A stretch of DNA of 64,000 nt from Siphonodentalium dalli (lineage: Eukaryota > Mollusca > Scaphopoda > Gadilida > Siphonodentaliidae), in the NCBI GenBank assembly GCA_032622095.1, contig CP136063.1, positions 66,229,897 through 66,293,896 on the forward strand, given 5' to 3'. The position numbers and the translations under genes were made by a program. Of the stretch, positions 888-59,479 are shown piece by piece. The notes under the pieces are model-generated. The model made no database searches. It was not told where the DNA came from and saw only the letters and a list, made by a program, of their open reading frames with translations. Within the stretch, counting starts at the first letter, position 1. Each line of letters begins with the position of its first letter.

Positions 888-947
888 CAATGATTTTTTT
901 AGTATAAAAATGGTTAAACGAATGGGAAGGAAATAAGTAAAAAAAAC

Positions 948-1387
948 TTGCAAAACCAGTGAGAGAAAGATTGTGTTCTGCGTGTAATTCAAAACAAATT
1001 GAGTCAGAATATCATTTCATCTTAGAATGTCGGGCCTATGAAAGTATTCGCGAAGCTTATGTAAAGGACATAATTGCAACGTGCCCTCAATTCTTAGAAA
1101 TGACAAATTATGAGAAGTTCAGATTTATTATGCAGAATGAACAAATTGCAACCGTTAACGTTAAATGCGACATGATCCGGTCTTTCTTCACCATTCGAGA
1201 CAATATACATATGTCTAATAAAAGCAAGTATACCTGAGATTTTATGACAGTAAATCCACGAGCGTATATGCATATCATATGTGATTACTCATGTTAAATT
1301 ATTCCTTATGTTGATATATGTTGTATCTATTATATGTGCAACTGCCCATTGGGTGTATATGGCATTAAAATCTTATCTTATCTTATC
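948..1387 (+). mobile_element. 5'-truncated non-LTR retrotransposon (LINE) 3' end
   Basis: The fragment holds the end of an ORF2-like frame, a short 3' UTR and a pentanucleotide tail (ATCTT repeated, 1368-1387). Its 3' UTR end (aactgccc...gggtgtat...taaaa, then the tail) matches in layout the 3' end of the larger minus-strand LINE near 32388-32440, which has a (TTATG)n tail. It is inserted into a short repeat whose intact copy lies inverted at 3744-3861. The element is dead by 5' truncation. Confidence 0.8.
959..1237 (+). pseudogene. LINE ORF2 C-terminal Cys/His knuckle fragment
   Basis: This open frame encodes the extreme C-terminus of a LINE ORF2 polyprotein. The recognisable part is the knuckle C-x2-C-x10-H-x4-C (LCSACNSKQIES...YHFILEC), followed by the usual arginine-rich helix and a short tail. 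The same module, in the form KKCEANEIETEEHFIMRC, ends the larger LINE at 32529-32947 (minus). The coding frame continues upstream of the first ATG to the truncation point near 948, so the nominal start is not a real start. Endonuclease and reverse transcriptase domains are absent. It is a dead fragment, not a cellular gene. Confidence 0.8.
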
Positions 1388-1610: not shown

Positions 1611-2973
1611 TTGAGCAGTGAATGCGTATTTAATCTTACCTGAGCAGTGAATGCGTATTTAATCTTACCTGAGCAGTGAATGCGTACTTAATCTTACCTG
1701 AGCAGTTAATGCGTACTTAATCTTACCTGAGCAGTGAATGCGCACTTAATCTTACCTGAGCAGTGAATGCGTACTTAATCTTACCTGAGCAGTGAATGCA
1801 TATTTAATCTTACCTGAGCAGTGAATGCGTACTTAATCTTACCTGACCAGTGAATGCGTACTTAATCTTACCTGAGCAGTGAATGCGTACTTAATCTTAC
1901 CTGAGCAGTGAATGCGTACTTAATCTTACCTGAGCAGTGAATGCGTACTTAATCGTACCTGAGCAGTGAATGCGTACTTAATCTTACCTGAGCAGTGAAT
2001 GCGCACTTAATCTTACCTGAGCAGTGAATGCGTACTTAATCTTACCTGAGCAGTGAATGCGTACTTAATCTTACCCGAGCAGTGAATGCGTACTTAATCT
2101 TACATGAGCAGTGAATGCGTACTTAATGTTACCTGAGCAGTGAATGCGTACTTAATCTTACCTGAGCAGTGAATGCGTACTTAATCTTACCTGAGCAGTG
2201 AATGCGTACTTAATCTTACCTGAGCAGTTAATGCGTACTTAATCTTACCTGAGCAGTGAATGCGCACTTAATCTTACCTGAGCAGTGAATGCGTACTTAA
2301 TCTTACCTGAGCAGTGAATGCATATTTAATCTTACCTGAGCAGTGAATGCGTACTTAATCTTACCTGACCAGTGAATGCGTACTTAATCTTACCTGAGCA
2401 GTGAATGCGTACTTAATCTTACCTGAGCAGTGAATGCGTACTTAATCTTACCTGAGCAGTGAATGCGTACTTAATCGTACCTGAGCAGTGAATGCGTACT
2501 TAATCTTACCTGAGCAGTGAATGCGCACTTAATCTTACCTGAGCAGTGAATGCGTACTTAATCTTACCTGAGCAGTGAATGCGTACTTAATCTTACCTGA
2601 GCAGTGAATGCGCACTTAATCTTACCTGAGCAGTGAATGCGTACTTAATCTTACCTGAGCAGTGAATGCGTACTTAATCTTACCTGAGCAGTGAATGCGT
2701 ACTTAATCTTACCTGAGCAGTGAATGCGCACTTAATCTTACCTGAGCAGTGAATGCGTACTTAATCTTACCTGAGCAGTGAATGCGTACTTAATCTTACC
2801 TGAGCAGTGAATGCGCACTTAATCTTACCTGAGCAGTGAATGCGTACTTAATCTTACCTGAGCAGTGAATGCGCACTTAATCTTACCTGAGCAGTGAATG
2901 CGTACTTAATCTTACCTGAGCAGTGAATGCGTACTTAATCTTACCTGAGCAGTGAATGCATATTTAATCTTAC
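1611..2973 (-). repeat. 29-bp minisatellite, 47 units, each bounded by splice-like signals
   Basis: Exactly 47 head-to-tail 29-bp units without an indel: the first and last units are offset by 46 x 29 bp. Read on the minus strand, each unit begins GTAAGATTAAGTACGC and ends CACTGCTCAG, so every junction reads CAG|GTAAGA, a consensus 5' splice site. The array begins at the donor of the PAN-domain exon (exon end at 2974, first unit 2945-2973). A few units carry variants (GTACGATT, GTAACATT, a gaccag form, a gcatat form). Several variants recur 522 bp (18 units) apart, showing a higher-order duplication. Confidence 0.95.
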
Positions 2974-2976
2974 CTT
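2968..2976 (-). promoter_or_regulatory. 5' splice site of the PAN-domain exon
   Basis: The minus strand reads AAG|GTAAGA with the exon ending at 2974. The sequence matches the metazoan donor consensus. It is the first of 47 near-identical donor-like sites spaced 29 nt apart. Confidence 0.65.
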
Positions 2977-3244
2977 GGTATACGACTGATCCTGTCTGAC
3001 TCGAATCCAAATTCCCGGTGCTAAGGTAGCAGCTAGATGTCGTCTGGTTAAAGGAGAATCTGATGCATCCATCCTGTCCACACAGATAGCCACAATGTAT
3101 CTCCGAGAACGCCGGCACGATGACGTGGAATATTACGCCTGGCAGACATTGCTTGAGCGACTCTCGATCAGCATTGTAAGAAAACTGCTGCACAGCAGAC
3201 AACACACTGAAGAACCGTGCCCAGAACAGCAACAAGCCACACAT
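2974..3244 (-). CDS. First coding exon of a secreted PAN/apple-like domain protein
   Basis: Read on the minus strand from the ATG at 3244, the exon opens with a hydrophobic signal peptide (MCGLLLFWARFFSVLSA) and continues into a cysteine-rich segment with the spacing of PAN/apple modules (HCGYLCGQDGCIRFSFN, then SSCYLS). Such modules in animals usually mediate protein or carbohydrate contacts of extracellular proteins. The frame ends at TACCAAG|GTAAGATT, a strong donor, so coding should continue in an exon that I do not find in this window. An upstream in-frame ATG at 3274 would add ten residues; I prefer 3244 because it gives a clean signal peptide. A TATAAAGG string at 3487-3494 (minus) could be a TATA box. 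The intron starts directly with the 29-bp minisatellite. Confidence 0.6.
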
Positions 3245-3743
3245 GACCTTATATGGTCTATATGCGATTTGCATCTTGTCGACAGTAATGGCGTGCGTGC
3301 GACGACTATCCTCTACACGGACCACTCTAATGTTGTATTGGGTTGGTGAAGCTATTTTGCTATTGACCAAATGTATCCAGAAAGTCGCGTGGTGAACACA
3401 ATGGTAAGATTAACTTGGATACCAGTCTCCCTCAGTCGGTGAATGATAATGTAGGAATGAAAATTCATCTAATGCGTAAGTGCTTCCTTTATAAAAAATT
3501 AAACACCTCACGGTATGGATGGTCGATGTGAAGCTACTCATATCCAACTTTAAAATTTGTATAGATTTATTGAAGTTTTCTAACCACAATGAAAGCTGTA
3601 GTAGCATAGTGTGTTGCTATCAACACACTATGAATGCAAACGTTCTGGGATAACATCACGCCCACTCTTATACCTACAATGTCAGGTGCTAGTTGCATTT
3701 TCGGCTCGTTCCGACATAGCCGCACGGGCGCCCAATTTGTTTT

Positions 3744-3861
3744 TAATATTCGCAGGGTCCTAGTGTACTTTGATAATGACGTATATTCATTGTGATATGC
3801 ATGTTTTTATTACTGATTTCCTGCCCCTCCGTTTAACCATTTTTATACTAAATAATCATTG
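3744..3861 (-). repeat. Short interspersed repeat, copy B (uninterrupted)
   Basis: An inverted, intact counterpart of 888-946 plus 1388-1437. It lacks the LINE fragment and so gives the pre-insertion sequence. Similarity stops near aatattcg on one side and caatga on the other. Confidence 0.7.
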
Positions 3862-4962
3862 ATGAGTAGTTACCTTAGAACATGTTCAGATAATACGGTC
3901 GTTTGTTTTAAACTTATTATCTCATACACCACATGCGATCAATTATGGACTCATATATCTAGAACATTAAGAGACAACTGCATGCTTTATATATATTTGA
4001 ATTATGTCGATAATCTGGATTTCTACACAAACCATGGCCAATATCAATATTTCGGTCATTGGTACAATTTAAATAAAATAAATCAAGTATATGGAATTTT
4101 TGTGCTCAAACGCTAATTCTGCAATCTTCGAGATTTATGCATCTTTAAAAAACCAAGGGCTGTAGTTGGAAATTCCCGAATAAATGGGGGAAGAGGTGGA
4201 GTAAAAAAAAATTCCTGCATAGTTCGAATTTTATAACATGCTTAAAGTTACTGTTGAATATTGTAGTACACCTCGGGTAGGAATAGGCCTACGTTCGTCA
4301 GGATATAGCTCAACTTGAGCCCGAGATATAATACCGGTACGTGATGATGTGTATATATATGACTGTATAGGTCACCCCCTGTGTGGTAACATATAAGTCG
4401 GGTTCTGTCTCGTCAGAAGGCTAGATGAATTTGTTATTCTGCTGGTCGATCTTCACCATGCAACCTCGATCTGGACCTATATGTACAGGGGAGTTGGACT
4501 GTATCCTATATGTATACAAGTATGCGTGTAGCCGTAGTCTATATGCCTATGAGTGGAAACTTCACCAAAGGCCTCGCTCGATTTTACCGAGTGAGTCCAG
4601 GGGTCGGGTAGACAACTGAGAATTGAGTTCAACTTGATGAAGTTTATTCTTTACAATATGTACATTTGTATCGTTCTTTATATGTGGTGAGTTGATGATA
4701 TCACAGCAGTAATAAATACTATAACTATATAATAATAACACTATTGGCAGTATAGACGTGTTGTTCCCGATAGGCAATGACCTTGATTCACGGGTAATCA
4801 GTACAGTCAATGAAAGAGTCTGATGCGGACTTTACATACTATGACTGTGTATAAAGCTGGAATTTAACAACGAACAATGAAGAGCCATGTGGAATGTATC
4901 TTTATACGTGATGTCAAACCTTGTGGTTGGAATTATGGAAATTTATAGAATTAAGTAGTGCA

Positions 4963-7519: not shown

Positions 7520-8626
7520 CTCTGGCAGGAGAGTGGAGCGAAAAGGTCGTGCTTGCTTCGATCTGATTAGTTCCTCTTTTGTCAGAGCGTTGAGCACGGG
7601 TGAGTCGTGTGGCCGCGCCTCCGGGTGCAGCTGTCCCCGTGCTTAACGCCAGTGAGACGGTTTTGGATTAGGCTTATGGATTTAATCCCAGACGCCGTGT
7701 TGGCCGCAGTGCAAAGGTGTTCGGTAGTGGACATTGCTAACTGGAGTCTCCAGTCTAGCAGGGGCTACCTGACCCTTTGCCTGGAGTTCCGGACTGAAGA
7801 TGCTGGCATCCAGAGATCGCAAGCCCGGGACACCAACTCCAAGACTGCCTCCTGTCATCTGAGTGGGAAGAACAAAGGGCCGCCCAAGAAGAAGACGCCT
7901 GCGAGGAAAATAAGGGACGCCGCCAGACGAGCCAAATGGAAGAAGAGGGGGTGACTGTTGATCTGCCAGTCACCCCTCCCCTTGTGGTTCAGCCGACGTC
8001 CAATGTCACAGCCGGCAGGTCGGAGTTGTCTGAGAGACGCCCAGACTACCCGACCTGCATGGAGACAGGCGACATCGCACCAGCTAGCAGGGACTCCGTC
8101 GATCTTCCGGAGGTCCCTGCTGTCGTCGTCGAGGCAAGCGGAACAAGGGAGCAGGAAACCACCCCTCCTGTTCCTGCCGCCTGCTTCGAGGTGGAACTGG
8201 ACAGCTTGCCACCACGGACACCGGAGTACCAGCACATCCCGGTGTCCCCCAGCTCCACCGCTAGCAACAACAACAGCACAGACACCACTCGGTCTGCTCG
8301 GTCTCATGAAGAAAACATGCGGATTGCAGATAACGCCATCGCTAAATACGAAAGATATAACAAAGAACTAAAAGAAAACCTCCAACGCAACTTACAAGAA
8401 GCGGAAGTACATCGTATCACTCAGCAGAGACCTACATCATCTCCTCAGTCATCAACAGAAAAGCCAAACCCAAAAAAGAAAAGGAAAAGAAAAAATAATC
8501 ACCATCACAAAATGCTTACCCTTTTTTTCCCCTCACCAATAAAGGTAACAACATGAGGGATTAAGGAGGAGGACCATTCGGTCCTTCCGACAATCCCGGG
8601 CTAGCCCCCGAACCACTCATTCTCTC
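7520..8626 (+). mobile_element. ORF1-only retroposon, copy 1
   Basis: The element begins ctctggcagg and ends accactcattctctc. It is flanked by an 11-bp direct repeat, tctgactgagg, at 7509-7519 and 8627-8637, the target-site duplication expected of LINE-driven retrotransposition. Copy 2 (8897-9953) shares the same 5' start, coding region and 3' UTR but has a different target duplication, so the two are independent insertions rather than a tandem gene duplication. There is no reverse transcriptase and no poly(A) tail; the 3' UTR ends in a conserved pyrimidine-rich segment with a small cggt..ccg hairpin. By analogy with half-LINEs it could be mobilised in trans. Confidence 0.75.
7676..8556 (+). 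pseudogene. ORF1-like protein of retroposon copy 1, frameshifted
   Basis: The frame opens at an ATG (7676) with MDLIPDAVLAAVQR and continues through WSLQSSRGYLTLCLEFR and a lysine/arginine-rich stretch (KKKTPARKIRDAARRAKW). At about 7941-7950 four bases are missing relative to copy 2. The first frame then stops at 7954 and homology continues in another frame (7936-8556) with VTVDLPVTPP, SVDLPEVPAVVV, FEVELDSLPPRTPE and a basic C-terminus. I recognise no catalytic domain. The basic 'KxPSRxRRDxRRxxxW'-type segment resembles RNA-binding parts of retroelement ORF1/gag-like proteins, which is inference. Compared with copy 2 it keeps the ATG start but has lost the frame. Confidence 0.6.
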
Positions 8627-8896: not shown

Positions 8897-9953
8897 TACT
8901 CTGGCAGAGGGTGGAGCGAACATGTCGTGATTGCTTCGACCTTATTAGTTCCTCTTTGTCAGAGCGTTGAGCACGGGTGAGTCGTGTGGCCGCGTCCTCG
9001 GATGTAGCTGCCCTCGTGCTTAACGCCGGTGAGACGGTTTTGGATTTAATCCCAGAAGCCGTGTTGGCCGCAGTGCAAAGGAGTTCGGTAGTGGACATTG
9101 CTAACTGGAGTCTCCAGTCTAGCAGGGGCTACCTGACCCTTTGCCTGGAGTTCCGGACTGACGATGGTGACATCCAGAGATCGCAGGCCCGGGACACCAA
9201 CTCCAAGACCACCTCTCGTAATTTGAAGTCAGAGAAGAAAAAGAAGAAGAAGAAGACACCCTCCAGAAAGAAAAGGGACGCTGGCAGACGGGCGAAGTGG
9301 AATAACAGGATAGGGGTGACCGTTGATCGACCGGTCACCCCTCCCCGTGTGGACCAGCCGTCCAGTGTCGCAGCCGGCAGGCCGGAGTTGTATGAGAGAC
9401 GCACAGACGACCCGTCCTGCATGGAGACCGACATTGTTGCAGTCATCAAGGACTCCGTGGATCTGCCGGAGGTCCCTGCTGTTGTCGTGACTAGCGGAGA
9501 AAGGGAGCAGGACACCACCCCTGCTGTTCCTGCCGCCAGCTTCGAGGTGGAGTTGGACAGCTTTCCACCACGGACACCGGAATTCCATCTCATCCCGGTG
9601 TCCCCCAGCTCCCCCAAAAGCATCTTCGACACCATCCAGGATAGAAGTCAAGAAGACATCGACAGAAGTCAAGAAGCCATCGACAAAGCCGACAAAGTAT
9701 TAAAATCGACACAAGACCTTCTAGCAAGACTCAGTCCACCTCCTTCATCACCATCATCACCCTCTTCAACAGAGAAACAAACCCAAAGAATAAGAGGAAG
9801 AAGAAACGTTAAAATCCAAGAAAACATCTTAAATTGCTTCTTCTTTTTTTTCTGATTCAAATTAAAGGCAAAAACATGAGGGGTTAAGGGGAGTTACCAT
9901 TCGGTGCTTCCGACAATCCCGGGGCTGCCACCCCAAACCACCCACTCTACTAC
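8897..9953 (+). mobile_element. ORF1-only retroposon, copy 2
   Basis: Same family and orientation as 7520-8626, only 260 bp downstream. A 13-bp direct repeat, tcgtgatatacga, flanks it at 8884-8896 and 9954-9966. The 5' end (ctctggcagaggg, 8899) and 3' UTR (catgagggg..taa to accacccactct) align with copy 1. Both copies therefore appear to be full length, which is unusual for 5'-truncating LINE machinery. Confidence 0.75.
8977..9855 (+). CDS. ORF1-like basic, proline-rich retroelement protein (copy 2)
   Basis: An open frame of 292 codons with no frameshift. Residues about 20-60 match copy 1 (DLIPEAVLAAVQR, VVDIANWSLQSSRGYL). Residues about 80-110 are strongly basic (a run of seven lysines, then TPSRKKRDAGRRAKW). 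The middle is acidic/proline-rich, and residues about 220-260 (DTIQDRSQEDIDRSQEA) look coiled-coil prone. There is no ATG before residue about 150: the nominal start is GTG right after a TGA. The initiator ATG seen in copy 1 was removed by a 12-bp deletion between two TGGATT repeats. A GGGTGAGT string at 8975-8982 could alternatively be a splice donor. The function is unknown; a nucleic-acid-binding ORF1 role is inference. Confidence 0.55.
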   Translation: MSRVAASSDVAALVLNAGETVLDLIPEAVLAAVQRSSVVDIANWSLQSSRGYLTLCLEFRTDDGDIQRSQARDTNSKTTSRNLKSEKKKKKKKTPSRKKRDAGRRAKWNNRIGVTVDRPVTPPRVDQPSSVAAGRPELYERRTDDPSCMETDIVAVIKDSVDLPEVPAVVVTSGEREQDTTPAVPAASFEVELDSFPPRTPEFHLIPVSPSSPKSIFDTIQDRSQEDIDRSQEAIDKADKVLKSTQDLLARLSPPPSSPSSPSSTEKQTQRIRGRRNVKIQENILNCFFFFF

Positions 9954-13230: not shown

Positions 13231-13875
13231 AGATTTCAACGTAATTTGATACTTATGGGTATTTGTGTCCGGGAAGTGTTTTGAACGGGTCAAATCGTGA
13301 CCCCGACCTGACCTTGACCTTTAAAACTGTCAATGCAAGGTCAATTTGGGTAAAACGGACAAATTTCGGCGAAATTTTATACCTAGGGATACTTTGGTCC
13401 GAGGAGAGTTTTGAACGGGTCAAATCGTGACCTCGGCCTGACCTTGACCTTCAATATGGCCAATCAAAGGTCAACTCGGATAAAACGGATAGATTTCGAC
13501 GAAATTTGATACCTATGGGTACTTTTGTCGGGGGGGGGGGGGGGGTGTTTTGGACGTGTCAAATCATGATTCTGACCTTACCTTGACCTTCAAAATTGTT
13601 AATTAAAGTTCAAGTTGGGTAAAACGGACGGATTTCGACGAAATATGATACCTATGGGTAGTTTTCTACGGGTGGGGGTGTTTTGGACTGGACAAATCAT
13701 GACCCTGACCTGACCTTGACTTTCGAAATAGTCAATTGAAGGTCAAATCGCACCTTTCACCGGAAAGCAGATGGGAAACAGCCCGGGTGAAGTCGGGCCT
13801 ATCAGCTTGTGTAATAAAGAAGACAGTTTGATGAAAGTAATGTATGCCACGAGAAACGGGAAAACTTGAAATATG
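13231..13875 (+). repeat. Helitron-like interspersed repeat, copy 2 (four core units)
   Basis: Four units starting near 13233, 13364, 13494 and 13633 (periods about 130, 130 and 139 bp; the last is stretched by a G-run at 13530-13546). Each contains gacctgaccttgacctt and a tcaaggtcaa half-site pair. It ends with cagcccgggtgaagtcgggc and atcagcttgtg, then about 80 bp also shared with copy 1 (agacag.ttga...acgagaaacggg). Confidence 0.6.
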
Positions 13876-21340: not shown

Positions 21341-23737
21341 ATGTGTGATGATGATAATAATGATGGCGACTTCTCGGTCAAAGAGAAACAACTCGACGAC
21401 AGAAATCAGACGACTGATAAATGTGATCAGAATGAGCTTCCTGTGGATGGTGAGAGAAACGGACAACGTCAACAGTGTGATGTGTGCCTCAAGAAAGTCG
21501 TTCACCTGAAGGTACACATGAGAATACATAGGGGAGAAAAACCATACGAGTGTGAGGTGTGTCTTAAGAGATTTACTGAGTCTGGTAGTCTGAAACACCA
21601 CATGATGGTGCACACGGGAGAGATGCCACATCAGTGTGAGGTGTGCCTTAAGAGATTCACCTCGTCTGGTAACTTGAAATCACACATGAGGATCCACACC
21701 AAAGAAAAGCCATACGAGTGTGATGTGTGTCTGAATAAATTCGCTCACTCCTATGGTCTGTCAACACACATGGTGATTCACACAGGAGAGAAACGACATC
21801 AATGCGAGGTATGTCTATACAAATGTACCACGACTGGAAATCTGAAAGCACACATGAGGATGCATACAGGCGAGAAACCATACAAGTGTGACGTGTGTCT
21901 TAAAACATTCACTTCGTCTGGTCATATGAAGACACACATGAGGGGCCACTCAGGTGAGAAACCATATCAATGTGATGTGTGTCTTAAAACATTCACTTCG
22001 TCTGGTCATATGAAAACACACATGCGGAGCCATTCAGGCGAGAAACCATACCAATGTAAGGTGTGTCAACATAAATCTACCACTTCTGGAAATCTGAAAA
22101 AACACATGCAGATACACACAGGAGAAAAACCATATAAGTGTGAAACGTGTCTGAAAACTTTCTCTACTTATGATCATCTGAAAACACACACGATGACCCA
22201 CACGGGGGAGAGGCCATATGAATGTGATGTGTGCCTTAAGAAATTCATAACGTCTGGTACACTGAAAGTTCATAAAAGAATACACACAGGAGAGAGACCG
22301 TACCAGTGTGACATATGTCTCAAGGGATTCACAAATAATGGTGACCTGACAAAGCACACACGGAGAATCCACACGGGAGAAAAGCCACATACGTGCGAAG
22401 TGTGTCTGAAGAAATTCGCTCACCCCTATGGTTTGACATCACACATGTTGGTTCACACAGGAGAGAAACGCTATCAATGTGAGGTGTGTCTAAAGAAATT
22501 CACAGGGCCGTCCAATCTGAAATCACACATGAGTATCCACACAGGAAAGAAGCCACATGCGTGTGACTTCTGCATGAAGAAATTCGCTCAACGAAGTAGT
22601 TTGCGAACGCACATGCTGATGCATACAGGAGAGAAACACTACCAGTGTGATGTGTGTCTAAAGAAATTCACCCAGTATGGTCAGTTGAAGGTACACACGA
22701 AAATTCACACAGGAGAGAAACCACATCAATGCGATGTTTGTCTAACTAAATTCGCCGAGTCTGGTGCTCTGAACACACACATGAGGATACATACGGGCGA
22801 GAAGCCATATGAGTGTGACGTTTGTTTTAAGAGATTCGCTCAATCTAATGATATGAAAACACACAGGAGAAACCACACGGGAGAGAAACCTTATAAATGT
22901 GATGTTTGTCTTAAGGGATACGCTTCGTCTGGTCAGCTGACAAAACACACGCGAACCCACACAGGGGAGACACCTTATTCGTGTAACGTTTGTCTTAAGA
23001 AATTCAGTTTTTCCGCTGGTCTGTTAATGCACATGAGAACCCACACAGGAGAGAAACCTTATGCGTGTAAAGTTTGTCTTAAGAGATTCAGTTCGTCTGG
23101 TAACATGAAAAGCCACATGATAACCCATACAGAAGAAGCACCTCATCCCTGTAACGTTTGTCTCAAGAGATTCAGATCGTCTGGTAGTTTGAAAATACAC
23201 ATGGAAAGAATCCACACAACAGAAAAACCTCACCAGTGTGAAATTTGCCTTAAGTCGTTCACTGTACCCGATTATCTAAAAAATCACATGAAGATACATA
23301 CGACAGATAGAGAGAAGCCCCATCAGTGCGACGTGTGTCTTAAGAGATTCGATCAGTCTAGTCATCTGATGTCACATATGAGGACCCACACAGGAGAGAA
23401 ACCATATCAGTGCAAGCTATGTCCTAAGAAATTTGCTCTGTCTGGTGCCTTGAAGTACCACACGAGAACTCATACAGGAGAGAAGCCATATGAGTGTGAT
23501 GTGTGTCTGGAGAAATTTAGTATGTCTAGTAGTCTGAAATCCCATATGAGGATTCATACAGGAGAGAGACCATATCAATGTGACGTGTGCCTTAAGAGAT
23601 TTAATCGGATCGATCATCTAAAAACACACACGAGAATCCACACAGGAGAGAGACCGTATACGTGTGAAGTGTGTCTTAATACATTCATCACCTCTTCTAG
23701 TTTAAAAACACACATGATGATCCACACAGACGGGTAA
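21341..23737 (+). CDS. C2H2 poly-zinc-finger protein, 798 residues, 27 fingers
   Basis: After an acidic N-terminus of about 45 residues (MCDDDNNDGD...) come 27 tandem C2H2 fingers up to the stop: a degenerate first finger (residues about 46-63, shortened between Cys and His), then 26 standard C-x2-C-x12-H-x3/4-H fingers with TGEKPY-type linkers. The finger signature CDVCLKxF is strongly homogenised, as in recently expanded arrays. Fingers 6 and 7 are nearly identical (TSSGHMKTHMR). There is no KRAB, SCAN, BTB or ZAD domain in this exon, so a partner domain, if any, lies in an upstream exon or is absent. The likely role is sequence-specific DNA binding in the nucleus. The 3' end merges directly into a decayed finger satellite (23738-24510). 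The ATG at 21341 is the first in frame. Confidence 0.9.
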   Translation: MCDDDNNDGDFSVKEKQLDDRNQTTDKCDQNELPVDGERNGQRQQCDVCLKKVVHLKVHMRIHRGEKPYECEVCLKRFTESGSLKHHMMVHTGEMPHQCEVCLKRFTSSGNLKSHMRIHTKEKPYECDVCLNKFAHSYGLSTHMVIHTGEKRHQCEVCLYKCTTTGNLKAHMRMHTGEKPYKCDVCLKTFTSSGHMKTHMRGHSGEKPYQCDVCLKTFTSSGHMKTHMRSHSGEKPYQCKVCQHKSTTSGNLKKHMQIHTGEKPYKCETCLKTFSTYDHLKTHTMTHTGERPYECDVCLKKFITSGTLKVHKRIHTGERPYQCDICLKGFTNNGDLTKHTRRIHTGEKPHTCEVCLKKFAHPYGLTSHMLVHTGEKRYQCEVCLKKFTGPSNLKSHMSIHTGKKPHACDFCMKKFAQRSSLRTHMLMHTGEKHYQCDVCLKKFTQYGQLKVHTKIHTGEKPHQCDVCLTKFAESGALNTHMRIHTGEKPYECDVCFKRFAQSNDMKTHRRNHTGEKPYKCDVCLKGYASSGQLTKHTRTHTGETPYSCNVCLKKFSFSAGLLMHMRTHTGEKPYACKVCLKRFSSSGNMKSHMITHTEEAPHPCNVCLKRFRSSGSLKIHMERIHTTEKPHQCEICLKSFTVPDYLKNHMKIHTTDREKPHQCDVCLKRFDQSSHLMSHMRTHTGEKPYQCKLCPKKFALSGALKYHTRTHTGEKPYECDVCLEKFSMSSSLKSHMRIHTGERPYQCDVCLKRFNRIDHLKTHTRIHTGERPYTCEVCLNTFITSSSLKTHMMIHTDG

Positions 23738-24510
23738 CGCTATTAGGGCGATATGTGTCTTAGTATATTCATCAACTCTTCCAGATTAAAACACATGTGA
23801 GGATCCACACAGACGGGTATCGTTATTAGGGCGATATGTGTCTTAATATATTAATCAACTCTTCTAGATTAACACACGTATGAGGAGCCACACAGACGGG
23901 TATCGTTATTAGGGCGATATGTGTCTTTCTATATTCATCAACTCTTCTAGATTATAAACACACACGATGATCCACACAGACGGGTAACGCTATTAGGGCG
24001 ATATGTGTCTTAGTATATTCATCAACTCTTCCAGATTAAAACACATGTGAGGATCCACACAGACGGGTAACGTTATTAGGGCGATATGTGTCTTAATATA
24101 TTAATCAACTCTTCTAGATTAACACACGTATGAGGAGCCACACAGACGGGTATCGTTATTAGGGCGATATTTGTCTTTCTATATTCATCAAGTCTTCTAG
24201 ATTTAAAACACACACGATGATCCACACAGACGGGTAACGCTATTAGGGCGATATGTGTCTTAATATATTCATAAACTCTTCTAGATTAACACACGTATGA
24301 GGAGCCACACAGACGGGTATCGTTATTAGGGCGATATGTGTCTTACTATATTCATCAACTCTTCTAGATTAAAAACACACACGATGATCCACACAGACGG
24401 GTAACGCTATTAGGGCGATATGTGTCTTAATACATTCATCAACTCTTCTAGATTAAAAAAACCCACATGAGGATCCACACAGACGAATGGCGCTATTAGG
24501 GTGATGTGTG
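23738..24510 (+). pseudogene. Zinc-finger-derived satellite downstream of the 798-aa gene
   Basis: Ten units continue in the finger repeat phase after the stop codon, each recognisable as one finger (cgatatgtgtctta for the CxVCL part, atgaggatccacacagacgg for the HMRIHTDG part). Periods are 83, 83, 84, 83, 83, 84, 83, 84 and 86 bp instead of 84, and units repeat as a 250-bp trimer. Every unit contains stop codons (tattagggcg) and the frame shifts from unit to unit. A last finger-like frame (MCLERFNPVGEPTSHLAMH) sits at 24506-24560. The trimeric homogeneity implies amplification after loss of coding. Confidence 0.85.
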
Positions 24511-24699
24511 TCTTGAGAGATTCAATCCGGTCGGTGAACCGACGAGTCACTTGGCGATGCATGTAGGAGAGACATGTCAGTGTGAACAATTAACATGTGA
24601 ACAGCAAAGTTTAACCGATAAGTGTGACAAACGAAGACCCCGAAACGTTCAGGGGAAGAATATTGTCATATTTATGTATGTGGAACTGTGACTGAGATA

Positions 24700-27689: not shown

Positions 27690-28790
27690 ATGCTTAGGCA
27701 GGGAAACGGACTCACTAAATGCCGTTCGGTACACGTCACACTTATATGGGCGATTGACTCTATAAATTATCTTCTGCTGTTATGACTGAACGCTATTCGA
27801 ACCACGTCACATGCATATGGTCGATTACGGGTGTGGATTCTTTTGTCACGGAATCGGACTCACTAAGTGCCTTTTGGTACACGTCACACGCGTATGGGCG
27901 ATTGACTGTGTGGTTTCTCTTGTGTTGGTATGACTGAATGATATTCGAACCTCGTCACATGCATATGGTCGATTACCGGTGTGGATTCTTTTGTCACGGA
28001 ACCGGACTCACTAAGTGCCTTTTGGTACACGTCATACGCGTATGGACGATTGACTGTGATTTCTCTTGTGTTGGTATGACTGAAGGATATTCGAACCTCG
28101 TCACATGCATATGGTCGATTACCAGTGTGGATACTTTTGCCACGGAACCGGACTCACTAAGTGCCTTTTGGTACACGTCACACGTGTATGGGCGATTGAC
28201 TGTGTGATTTCTCTTGTGTTGGTATGACTGAAGGATATTCGAACCACGTCACATGCATATGGTCGATTACCGGTGTGGATTCTTTTGTCACTGAACCGGA
28301 CTCACTAAGTGCCTTTTGGTACACGTCACACGCGTATGGACGATTGACTGATTTCTCTTGTGTTGGTATAACTGAAGGATATTCGAACCTCGTCACATGC
28401 ATATGGTCGATTACCAGTGTGGATACTTTTGCCACGGAACCGGACTCACTAAGTGCCTTTTGGCACACGTCACACGTGTATGGGCGACTGACTGTGTGAT
28501 TTCTCTTGTGTTGGTATGACTGAAGAATATTCGAACCACGTCACATGCATATGGTCGATTACCGGTGTGGATTCTTTTGTCGCTGAACCGGACTCACTAA
28601 GTGCCTTTTGGTACACGTCACACGCGTATGGGCGATTGACTGTTATTTCTCTTGTTGGTAAGACTGAAAGCTATTCAAACCACGTCACACTCGTATGGTC
28701 GATTAACGGTGTGGATTCTTTTATCACGGAACTGGACTCACTAAATATATTCAGTCAAAAGTCACACTCGTATGGGCGATAGCCACTATG
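27690..28790 (-). repeat. Satellite of about 146-bp units derived from decayed zinc fingers
   Basis: About eight units with periods of 144-148 bp (anchors at 27871, 28019, 28165, 28313, 28457 and 28605). Read on the minus strand each contains 1.75 finger remnants: RPYACDVYQKALSESGSV and a second partial finger (DHMHVT, from a former RPYACDV). The second zinc Cys is Tyr (TAC) and the terminal His pair is lost or frameshifted, so the units cannot fold as zinc fingers. The coding finger gene at 29845-31005 is on the same strand about 1 kb away. Confidence 0.8.
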
Positions 28791-29844: not shown

Positions 29845-31005
29845 CTAAACTCTTGCTTCCTCACAATGATACGGTTTGACAACACTATGTGTTCTCATGT
29901 GTGTAGTCATGCCATTCTGATGAGCGAATCTTTTCTCGCAGATATCGCACGCGTACGGCTTCTCTCCTGTGTGAATCCTCTCATGTACACTTAAGTTACT
30001 GGAGTTAATGAATGTCTTGCCGCACTGCTCACACTGATACGGTTTTACACCGCTGTGTTTCCTCGTGTGTGTAGTCATGCCAGCGTGGTGGGCGAATCCC
30101 TTGCCGCATATGCCACACGTATAGGGTAGATCTCCCGTGTGGATTCTCATGTGTATCTTCAAGTTGACGGAAGACTTGAATGCCTTGTTGCACATATCAC
30201 ACGGATAAGGTTTGACCCCTGTATGGCTCCTCTCATGCATAGTCAATGCATTCTTTTGAAAGAAACTCTTGTCACAAATACCACATTTATAAGGCATATC
30301 CCCCGTATGGATCCTCTTGTGTACAGTAAGATTACTCCGATAAGTGAATTTCTTCTGACAAATGTCACACTGATATGGTGTAACACCCGTATGGCTCCTC
30401 AAGTGTGCAGTTAGAGTACCCTTCCTAGTGAATGTCTTCTGACACACATCACACTCGAATGGTTTATCGCCAGTGTGGACCATCATGTGATCTGTTAGAG
30501 TAGTTTTATGATTGAAAAGCTTCTGACAAATATCACACTGATGTATTGTATTGACGGTTTGGATCTTCTTGTTCTGAGTCAGACTATTAGTTTGGGTGAA
30601 TCTCTTCTGACAGATATCATGCTTATATGGTGTCTCACATGTATGGATACTCGGGTTTTGCACCAGTTGATCATCAGCATCGAATCCCGCATCACAAACA
30701 TTGCGTTTAAACGAAGGGTCGCCTGTGCTGTTCCTCTTGTTTTTAGTCATTCCATCCGACTGATTTAAGGACGTATCGTATTCCTGACACATCTTTACAG
30801 GTTCAGTCACGCTATAATTTATTCCGATATTAGACCAATGCGTGAACGATTTTCCGCACTCTGTGCCCCCCGGTTGTCTCTTGTTGACATAAACTGTCCT
30901 ATGCGTTTCTATGGTGCTACATTCATTGTACGTCTCATCACACTGGCGTGCCTCTGCGTGTGTGATGTCGGTCATGGTCTGAATCCGCTTCGGTTCTCCG
31001 TGCAT
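29845..31005 (-). CDS. C2H2 zinc-finger protein, 386 residues, 3'-truncated array
   Basis: The minus-strand frame starts with an ATG at 31005. Residues 1-150 contain degenerate fingers (ECGKSFTHWSNIGIN, VCDAGFDADDQL, HDICQKRFTQTN) that lack one or more zinc ligands. Residues about 155-378 hold eight canonical C2H2 fingers (QCDICQKLF to YACDICEKRF) with TGD/TGV/TGE-type linkers. A ninth finger breaks off after YHCEE, before its second Cys, where sequence leading into the palindromic element (29734-29830) begins; the protein ends EEARV. Predicted nuclear DNA binder. Finger identity differs from the CxVCLKxF type at 21.3 kb, so it is a different subfamily. It may still be functional with eight fingers, or may be a decaying copy. 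Confidence 0.8.
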   Translation of the reverse strand: MHGEPKRIQTMTDITHAEARQCDETYNECSTIETHRTVYVNKRQPGGTECGKSFTHWSNIGINYSVTEPVKMCQEYDTSLNQSDGMTKNKRNSTGDPSFKRNVCDAGFDADDQLVQNPSIHTCETPYKHDICQKRFTQTNSLTQNKKIQTVNTIHQCDICQKLFNHKTTLTDHMMVHTGDKPFECDVCQKTFTRKGTLTAHLRSHTGVTPYQCDICQKKFTYRSNLTVHKRIHTGDMPYKCGICDKSFFQKNALTMHERSHTGVKPYPCDMCNKAFKSSVNLKIHMRIHTGDLPYTCGICGKGFAHHAGMTTHTRKHSGVKPYQCEQCGKTFINSSNLSVHERIHTGEKPYACDICEKRFAHQNGMTTHMRTHSVVKPYHCEEARV

Positions 31006-32019: not shown

Positions 32020-32528
32020 TATGGGGCGCCGTTCTTCTATTTATTACCTATTTAGTTTTATCACTAATTAATTTTATGATATCACTAATTCGATTATGTG
32101 ATATCACTAATTATTACCACTTTATAGGGCGTTCTCTAGGCCATTGATAATGTTTTTCGGGGCGTTCCAAATAGCGTATTGTTACCAAAACAGCGGGCCG
32201 CGGGCCGATAATGAGAAGCCTAGTTCAATATCGGCCCGCCGCCCGGAAACTATAGATCTCGTTTATTATCGCGAGAGTTACGTCCCTTCAACTTCCGATA
32301 TGGCGTGTTTATTTAAAGAAAATAATGGGAAGATGTATCCGATTTCCTCGACATTGTAGTGGTTTTATGATTGGAATTTACGCTATAACATAACATAACA
32401 TAACATTTTTATTGACATAATACACCCACGCGGGGCAGTTGTCATAATACAGATAATTTAAACACAAGTCAAGACAATTTCATATAAAATATATATATAA
32501 CATGTATTTGTAACTCAACACTATATTC

Positions 32529-37804: not shown

Positions 37805-38055
37805 TATTGTTATATTAATTTTGTGATATCACAAATTATTTTGTGATATCACTAAATATTTTAAGATATCACAAATTCGAATTCTTGATATCACAAATTG
37901 ATTTTATTATATCATAAAATCGAATATGTCATATCACAAAATAGTAGCATTTAGTGATATCACGAATTCTATTTTGTGATATCACAAAGTCATTTTGTGA
38001 TATCATAAAATTGAATATGTGATATCACTACTTCATTTTGTGATATCGATAAATA
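37805..38055. repeat. Array of tttgtgatatcacaaa palindromes (copy 1)
   Basis: About ten degenerate copies of the 16-bp palindrome TTTGTGATATCACAAA, spaced roughly 20-30 bp. Spacers are of the aatcgaat type. Confidence 0.8.
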
Positions 38056-38869: not shown

Positions 38870-39360
38870 TCATTTTGCGATATTACAAATTACCAACATT
38901 TTGTGATATCAATAAATCGTATTTTCAGAAAGCCGTGGAATTTGTGATATCATAAAATTTAATATGTGATATCATAAAATGGTTACTATTTTGTGATATC
39001 ATAAAATCAATTTGTGATATCACTAAATGATTTTATGATATCACAAAATCGAATATGTGATATCACAAAATAGTAGCATTTAGTGATATCACAAAATTAA
39101 ATTTGTGATATCATAAATTTATTTACACGATTTAGTGACATCACAAAATATTTCATGATATCACAAAATAATATTAGTGATGTAACTAAATAGTCATGTT
39201 GTCAGAATTAGTGATATCACAAAATGAATATGTGATATCACAAAATCGAATTTGTGATATCACTATTTCATTTTATGATATCACAAAATCGATTTTGTGA
39301 TATCACAAAATAATAAGCATTTAGTGATAATCGATAAAATGAATTAGTGATATCACTAAA
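38870..39360. repeat. Array of tttgtgatatcacaaa palindromes (copy 2)
   Basis: About eighteen degenerate copies of the same 16-bp GATATC-centred palindrome as in 37805-38055, separated by short aatcgaat- or attagc-type spacers. Confidence 0.8.
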
Positions 39361-40666
39361 TAGGTAATAAATAGAAGAACGGCGCCCCATACGAACCAGC
39401 ATATAATAAAAAGGAAATATACGGCTTTTGACTGGAGATAGTATATCATTCGTGGGTAGGTTTACACGCAAATATCAATTTTCCAATCAGCATTTGCTTG
39501 TACCCGTTCTTGATCATTCTCGTTTTCAGTAAAAAAAAAAAAACATAGTTTATATCCTCTAGTATCATCATTGATTATTTGCAATATATTGATCGCTCAG
39601 CACAATTCCAATTACAGTAAAATGTGCAACTTCCGTTGCGAAACTGACACGGGGTAGAAACTGCTCCGCGAGACAGACACGACTTCTGATCTTGTGTCCA
39701 GTTCACTTCCGATGCACTCCAGTTCACTCGTGATCTGTTTAAGTTGGCTGGCGCTCGATTCTGTAGATGGAATCACCAAGGAAAGATAATATACCGTTTT
39801 TTTGTTAAATATGACTGCCGCACATCTGTTCATGAGATTTGCTATTTCCAATATACAGTGCGCCAATTTGCCAAATTAAGCGTATACTTTTGAGTGTTAA
39901 ATTGCCATTGCCCCAATGGTAAATTTCAACATAAATTTACGTGAGAAAAACGAATCATTCGATACTGACACGATAATGCAAGGTTTTATTAGTCAAAAGT
40001 GTGTTGTCTCCCCGCGGACAGTAGATATATGACCTTGGAATCATAAGATATTTAGGTTTGAAATTATGACGAAAAAGCTCCAGTTCACCGAAGATAAGAT
40101 CGGTTCACTTCCCGAACATAAGACCCAGTTCTTTGCCGATCAACAATGTTCTGTAGATTCATATTTACATTTCGAGCAGATTCAGATGAGAGATTCTCAA
40201 TTTTTGACCACCCCTATAAGGCTATATAGTCGAAAGAGCTTATATTGGTCTCAATTTGAAAGAAATATATATGGGTTATATGCAACATGTATGTTTAAAA
40301 CCAGTGCACGTATATCTGTACCTAGGGGTGCTATAGGAGATAATGAGATACACGTATTGGAGAAATAATGTCGCAGCCATGGACGAGAAAATGGGAAGTG
40401 GGATAGCGAGTCGTGTGCCCACCCAATACAGATCAAACCGCCGTTAAACCTATAATGTGTTGGTGCTATGATATTCTTTTTCTCCTTACTATATATGATG
40501 CAACTTCCTATTGTTTTCAGTTATACGAAGGACAGGAAAGGTCAATGCTTTCACTGGAAGACTCCAGGCTGTTGAGGGATATTTCATTTGACTCGATATT
40601 CGAGCCACAACTTGACTCGATATCCGAGCCACAACTAACATTGAAGCCGGGGCCACATGTCGAGAG

Positions 40667-58483: not shown

Positions 58484-59479
58484 TCACATTCTATTATGGA
58501 TTAGCTTATGTATAGTAACATGACTCGAACTATTGAATGTTTTCCCGCATATATCGCACGAATACGGCCTTTCTCCGGTGTGTATTCTCCGATGCCGTGT
58601 TAAAACATGCGACGTTGTGAATGTTTTCTCACACATATCGCACACATACGGCCGCTCCCCATTGTGGATTCTCTTATGCCTTGTTAAGTCTCCCGACTTA
58701 GTGAATGTTTGCTTACAGATGTCACACGGATACGGCCTTTCCCCGGTGTGAGTTCTTTTATGTATGGTTACATCGTTTAACTGAGTGAATGATTTACCAC
58801 ACACGTCACACAAATACGGCCGCTCCCCGGAATGGGTTCTTGTATGTACTGTCAAACTGGTCATCCAAGTAAATGATTTCCCACATACATCGCATTGATA
58901 TGTATTGTCCCTGTTGTGGATTCTCATATGCCTTGTCAAGTCACCCGACTGAACGAACGTTTTCCCACAAACGTCACATGCATACGGTCGCTCCACAGCG
59001 TGTATTCTTATATGCCAGCCCACGTGACTCTTCAGATGACCCGGTTGAGTAAATGATTTCCCGCACATATCACATTGATATGGAGTCTCTCCTGTGTGTA
59101 TTCTCTTATGCCTTGTCAAATCATGCGACTTCATGAAAGATTTACCACACACGTCACACCCATATGGCCGCTCCCCGGTGTGGATTCTATTATGCACTGT
59201 TAGGTGGTTTAAACAATTAAATGATTTCTCACATATATCACATTGATATGGATTGTCCCCGTTGTGAATTCTCTTATGCCGCCCCATGTGACTCTTCAGA
59301 TTACCCGATCGGTTAAATGATTTCTCACATATATCACATTGATATGGATTGTCCCCGTTGTGAATTCTCTTATGCCGCCCCATGTGACTCTTCAGATTAC
59401 CCGATCGGTTAAATGATTTCCCACATATATCACATTGATATGGATTGTCTCCGCTGTGGATTCTCTTATACCGCGTCAA
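58484..59479 (-). CDS. C2H2 zinc-finger array, 11 fingers, probable gene relic or internal exon
   Basis: The minus-strand open frame has 331 codons. Eleven fingers with CDICGKSF-type signatures run from residue about 14 to the end (HNRM). Fingers 1, 2 and 5 have four extra residues after the normal His pair (HMGRHKRIH, HVGWHIRIH), giving a tandem H-x3-H-x3-H and a longer linker. Fingers 1 and 2 are almost identical. The frame has no ATG at its 5' end (first codon TTG); the first Met is inside finger 1. Immediately upstream another finger (59480-59560) has TGA in place of its second zinc Cys codon. Decayed fingers follow the stop. It may be a pseudogene with an intact core, or an exon spliced to an unseen start. 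The role, if any, is DNA binding. Confidence 0.7.
   Translation of the reverse strand: MTRYKRIHSGDNPYQCDICGKSFNRSGNLKSHMGRHKRIHNGDNPYQCDICEKSFNRSGNLKSHMGRHKRIHNGDNPYQCDICEKSFNCLNHLTVHNRIHTGERPYGCDVCGKSFMKSHDLTRHKRIHTGETPYQCDMCGKSFTQPGHLKSHVGWHIRIHAVERPYACDVCGKTFVQSGDLTRHMRIHNRDNTYQCDVCGKSFTWMTSLTVHTRTHSGERPYLCDVCGKSFTQLNDVTIHKRTHTGERPYPCDICKQTFTKSGDLTRHKRIHNGERPYVCDMCEKTFTTSHVLTRHRRIHTGERPYSCDICGKTFNSSSHVTIHKLIHNRM

Follow-up and report, generated by a model that had tools for sequence, protein, structure and literature searches.

The closest described counterparts of the array reported here are the mirages of amphioxus, which are on record for Adh3, globin, and troponin C, with similar repeats in PGBD5 (PMC3087553, PMC3902484). 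In the account given of the Adh3 mirage, the units are 10 to 72 bp long, AG/GT is present in many, though not all, of the repeats, and the length of the cluster varies (PMC3087553, PMC3902484). The mirage of BflGb6 is described as comprising 6 or 3 units of 150 to 160 bp that include parts of the exon (PMC3087553), and regular splicing is reported to be undisturbed at the amphioxus mirages (PMC3087553, PMC3902484). Another precedent is the human IFI6/6-16 (G1P3) minisatellite, which is described as having multiple splice donor sites (Turri et al. 1995, as cited in PMC2572611, PMC3618361, PMC2915984, and PMC4526556); two of its downstream repeat units are reported to be used as donors, giving rise to three mRNAs (PMC4526556). 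Furthermore, tandem AGGT sites in UBC are stated to act as both donor and acceptor. The UBC units are given as 228-nt coding monomers that keep the frame, and introns spliced at dual-specific sites (DSS) are reported to be enriched in genes with tandem repeats (PMC10809524).

Our analysis covers one stretch of DNA of 64,000 bases (37.9% GC), here called the window. To judge from an exon like that of a spliced gene and from tandem regions resembling zinc fingers, the DNA has an animal-like character. The TRF list for the window has 45 rows, and among them is one 29-bp array (1612-2975; 47.0 copies, 96% matches, 0% indels). Splitting the minus strand into units from 2973 to 1611 likewise gives 47 units, 26 of which are identical to the consensus (Table 1). 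A degenerate pattern of the unit, with up to three mismatches allowed, has 47 matches in the window, all inside the array, whereas the expected number is 0.00. The array is confirmed as real, and the 47-copy minus-strand minisatellite with donors that had been predicted was recovered both by TRF and by the unit split, with an unbroken GT in 47/47 units. Each unit had also been said to end in CAG. The terminal AG is present in 44 of the 47 units, but it is missing from units 30, 31, and 47. An Rfam scan of the window at gathering thresholds returned 0 matches, and the exact 29-bp unit had 0 matches among the IMG/VR viral contigs, where a eukaryotic sequence is not expected. A stable RNA structure was rejected: all 200 shuffles of a 133-nt piece consisting of the first four units and 17 exonic bases fold at least as well as the piece itself.

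Table 1. Coordinates of the features of the array and the adjoining likely exon
Feature	Position in window	Strand	Basis
Minisatellite, 47 x 29 bp, consensus GTAAGATTAAGTACGCATTCACTGCTCAG	1611-2973	minus	TRF and unit split
14-unit run (units 32-45) that repeats units 14-27 (2191-2596) at an offset of 18 units (522 bp)	1669-2074	minus	Unit self-comparison
First in-frame stop when the exon reads on into the array	2912-2914	minus	Computed
First donor, AAG|GTAAGA; exon end at 2974, GT at 2973-2972	2968-2976	minus	Sequence
Likely first coding exon, 90 codons plus one base, start MCGLLLFWARFFSVLSAV, weak PAN_1 match	2974-3244	minus	Translation, Pfam

The sequence next to the array is likely to be a genuine coding exon. 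It is part of a minus-strand open reading frame (ORF) (3409-2912) in which the start at 3244 is followed by a hydrophobic stretch, signal-peptide-like by eye, and then by a cysteine-containing region. The original prediction of a PAN-domain exon stands insofar as Pfam PAN_1 matches this region (residues 48 to 81), but with 16.9 bits (E = 0.0056) the match falls below the curated cut-off of 21.4 bits; with the whole ORF as query, E is 0.0073. The best match of the exon among PDB sequences, an insignificant one, is chain A of 4a5v, micronemal protein 4 (E = 0.22), an apple/PAN protein of Toxoplasma. PAN_1 and micronemal protein 4, the best of the weak protein matches, fall on the same stretch of the exon; further weak matches are to a zinc finger in Pfam (E = 0.12) and to a viral IL-6 chain in PDB (E = 0.65). 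The AlphaFold model of the exon alone, made from a single sequence, is poor (mean pLDDT of 50.2), and a tblastn search of the window for paralogues found the exon itself only. Because the PAN_1 match is below threshold and the model is poor, we regard the exon as likely rather than proven. As the distance from 3244 to 2974 is 271 nt, the intron that follows would be in phase 1. No downstream exon was recognized in 1-1611 in a thin search, which comprised the ORF lists and a Pfam scan of one minus-strand ORF within that region (no match).

The likely exon and the array sit between inverted copies of a sequence of about 124 bp (882-952 plus 1384-1436, and 3745-3867), which are 87% and 91% identical in two pieces. 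A 431-bp segment (953-1383) interrupts the left copy; it has an ATCTT-type tail at its end and overlaps with an ORF (941-1237, plus strand) that by eye is retroelement-tail-like. The inverted pair could be the terminal inverted repeats of an element, or else two dispersed copies; blastn (E of 1e-3) found no other copies of the sequence in the window. When 860-960, 953-1384, 1370-1620, 2974-3420, 3420-3700, and 3650-3900 were compared with the window by blastn, the matches were confined to the inverted pair and a palindrome. The latter is near-perfect, measures 28 nt, and lies upstream of the likely exon (3605-3632; self-match of 93%).

The array abuts the likely exon and has its last two nucleotides in common. 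The exon's final AG continues the repeat, and no other exonic letters do so: of the 29 nt that precede the array, 10 match the unit, and of the 29 nt that follow it, 8 do, while random sequence agrees at a mean of 7.6 positions (95th percentile, 11). The predicted start of the array exactly at the end of the exon is therefore right within a 2-nt ambiguity, and the exon side is indeed not repeated beyond these two bases. The amplified segment had been taken to be the first 29 nt of the intron. Since the AG at the exon end continues the repeat, the best-fitting unit is instead AG together with the 27 bases that open the intron, and the most economical reading is that a segment AGGTAAG...GCTC, with the last two exonic and the first 27 intronic bases, would have been amplified.

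A 29-mer with a strong donor is rare in the rest of the window. Among 60,671 overlapping 29-mers from position 3301 on, read as circles and on both strands, CAGGTAAG occurs in 23, of which 22 overlap one another at one site and one is a circle closure, and [AC]AGGT[AG]AG occurs in 154. Outside the array, the window has the latter word six times and CAGGTAAGA not at all. The word [AC]AGGT[AG]AG was also looked for in 18 other tandem regions; it is absent from 16 and occurs once in each of the remaining two. Eight short regions (near 9643, 15960, 34061, 40588, 40869, 44809, 53835, and 59659) were left out of this check. Bare AGGT is frequent in some other arrays, with up to 14 on one strand of 13233-13750.

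These counts bear on the possibility of coincidence, that is, of an ordinary minisatellite with a donor-like word that happens to lie beside an ORF that is no exon or ends elsewhere. Such a reading draws on the sub-threshold PAN match, on the downstream exon not found in the window, and on the post hoc choice of the locus among many arrays. However, it would have to accommodate the scarcity of strong donors among the other 29-mers and the position of the donor, which lies on the same strand right after the PAN-like stretch of an ORF that stops 62 nt into the array. The two weak protein matches that cover the same stretch also argue against it. We consider coincidence improbable: a strong same-strand donor in the unit beside a PAN-like ORF is probably no accident, although the locus was chosen post hoc. 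In line with the original prediction, the array, being in register with the donor at the end of what is likely a coding exon, is best read as derived from a segment carrying a splice signal.

Other tandem regions of the window are of different kinds. Six of them (21514-23729, 23670-24514, 27702-28780, 30343-30542, 58534-58750, and 59217-59474) read as C2H2 zinc fingers by eye, and four of the six have a period of 83 to 84 bp in TRF; the one at 23670-24514 resembles a decayed and re-amplified zinc-finger array. TRF also lists arrays that are rich in AT and based on palindromes such as TTTGTGATATCACAAA (32051-32113, 37814-38053, and 38939-39363). In addition, two neighboring ORF regions (7604-8556 and 8971-9855) have closely similar protein sequences by eye and are perhaps a local duplication of a gene or an element.

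Unit 47 ends in AA (CTCAA) and not in AG; hence, the array has 46 internal junctions, of which 44 are AG|GT. Junctions of this kind are what a ladder of dual-specific, ratchet-like sites would be made of, with each CTCAG|GTAAGA serving as acceptor and donor and the intron removed stepwise or self-spliced in multiples of 29 nt. Metazoan introns are usually longer than 29 nt; the unit is below the usual size, so that only two or more units could be an intron. Moreover, the acceptor part has by eye only a short pyrimidine stretch, and no donor-specific constraint was seen, in a test that is weak (see below). Although two-way AGGT sites have been reported, and those of UBC likewise form a tandem array (PMC10809524), we find it highly improbable that the junctions work as such a ladder.

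The donor 9-mers (n = 47) were scored with the generally known donor consensus and U1 end. Forty-one of them are CAGGTAAGA (CAG|GTAAGA), which has 8/9 letters of the consensus and a computed pairing energy with U1 of -11.0 kcal/mol. One is the exon-edge donor AAGGTAAGA, with 7/9 letters and -9.5 kcal/mol, and the remaining five are variants with computed values of -4.4 to -10.3 kcal/mol. Thus, the consensus donor claimed for every junction is present at 41 of 47 sites, but five sites vary and the one at the exon edge differs. The same 41 internal donors are predicted to pair with U1 better than the exon-edge donor does.

Internal donors, if used, would change the message. Donor 2 would lengthen the exon by 29 nt and donor 3 by 58 nt, and both would shift the frame, as had been predicted of internal donors (donors 1, 2, and 3 are in phases 1, 0, and 2, respectively). 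The reading frame of the exon meets a stop 62 nt into the array (Table 1), and exons ending at donors 4 to 7 are computed to include it; exons ending at donors after the seventh must include it too, provided that nothing inside is spliced out.

Both the pairing energies and the frame are compatible with a functional donor decoy or rheostat, in which the stronger internal donors would recruit U1 in competition with the exon-edge donor, a tunable share of the transcripts would acquire a stop and be destroyed, and the length of the array would set the output. The fold of the four-unit RNA described above is less stable than those of its shuffles (z = 2.61), so that the donors may be accessible, and in human IFI6 two downstream repeat units are reported to be alternative donors (PMC4526556). 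Against this, the amphioxus mirages are reported without disturbed regular splicing (PMC3087553, PMC3902484), and donor-specific conservation among the units is lacking, by the weak test given below. A decoy or rheostat is thus unlikely in our view. It is very unlikely that the 41 better-pairing donors, each bringing a frame shift or a stop, act as a length-tunable brake that ties the productive splicing of a secreted PAN-like protein to copy number; if they did, variation in minisatellite length would be a dial on the output of the gene.

The array itself retains traces of its growth. A run of 14 units recurs at an offset of 18 units (Table 1) and is the trace of a block duplication of 18 units. 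At unit position 11, A is found only in the edge units 1, 46, and 47 and in the inner units 23 and 41 (5/47). Together, the block duplication and the edge variants, which are seen here in one allele, fit unequal exchange with poorly homogenized edges. After block-duplicated copies were merged, seven independent changes were inferred, at unit positions 4, 5, 13, 20, 25, 28, and 29; the count was made by hand and excludes the variants linked to the edges (positions 11 and 14) as well as the AA at the end of unit 47. Four of the seven lie inside the 9-nt donor, against an expectation of 2.2 (P for four or more, 0.14). This test for depletion is weak, since even zero of seven changes in the donor would give a P of 0.07. 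Since these inferred changes fall in the donor 9-mer no less often than elsewhere in the unit, homogenization suffices to explain the sameness of the units. Selection maintaining the donors is not supported by this weak test, and the suggestion that donors had been preserved for a purpose is not borne out by it.

We favor, as the probable explanation, a minisatellite of the mirage type, in which a duplicated exon/intron boundary would have grown to 47 copies with effects that are likely passive. A short segment across a genuine exon/intron boundary (AG|GTAAGATTAAATAYGCATTCACTGCTC) would have been tandemly duplicated, and the duplicated segment would then have expanded to its present copy number via slippage and unequal exchange. 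Amplification of a boundary segment would account for nearly every junction being CAG|GTAAGA, at once acceptor-like and donor-like. The exon-adjacent donor would serve the productive mRNA, and internal donors would be used at most occasionally, yielding a +29n series of transcripts with a shifted frame or a stop. A passive outcome is not assured, because the 41 perfect internal donors out-pair the exon-edge donor with U1 by computation. The sequence shows the array, its register with the ORF end, the phase, and that internal donors 2 to 7 would be unproductive; we infer the order of these events, the reality of the exon, and the donor in use.

A real exon would make the locus a clean natural experiment on how a donor is chosen, with 47 near-identical donors of which the first is slightly weaker than most. 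It would be a further example of the kind to which mirages and IFI6 belong, and it suggests that arrays of this sort can form even when the unit includes hardly any exonic sequence. It is also a warning that "conserved" splice motifs in arrays may stem from homogenization.

By analogy, the locus fits an already-known kind, together with the mirages, IFI6, and the tandem AGGT sites. Like the amphioxus mirages as described, it is a tandem repeat at a putative exon/intron boundary in which AG/GT is repeated, and the 29-bp unit lies within the 10 to 72 bp given for Adh3; the AG/GT signals that mark mirage units are present here at nearly all internal junctions. A homogenized interior from which the cluster boundaries are exempt may be a further likeness (PMC3087553, PMC3902484). 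Unlike BflGb6, for which 6 or 3 units with exon parts are reported, the present array has 47 copies and apparently only two exonic bases in the unit. The likeness to IFI6 is that the units of a minisatellite carry donors, which here are putative. The repeat units of IFI6 are 12 bp long and keep the frame; in contrast, a 29-bp unit is not a multiple of 3, and donors 2 to 7 would lead to a frame shift or a stop. As at the dual-specific sites of UBC and the ratchet points of recursive splicing, acceptor and donor motifs abut at the junctions, whereas the UBC units are described as 228-nt coding monomers with the frame kept and those of the present array are 29 nt long and probably intronic. What sets this locus apart from these systems is its copy number, the better pairing of its internal donors with U1 relative to the first donor, and the frame shift or stop that internal donors would bring.
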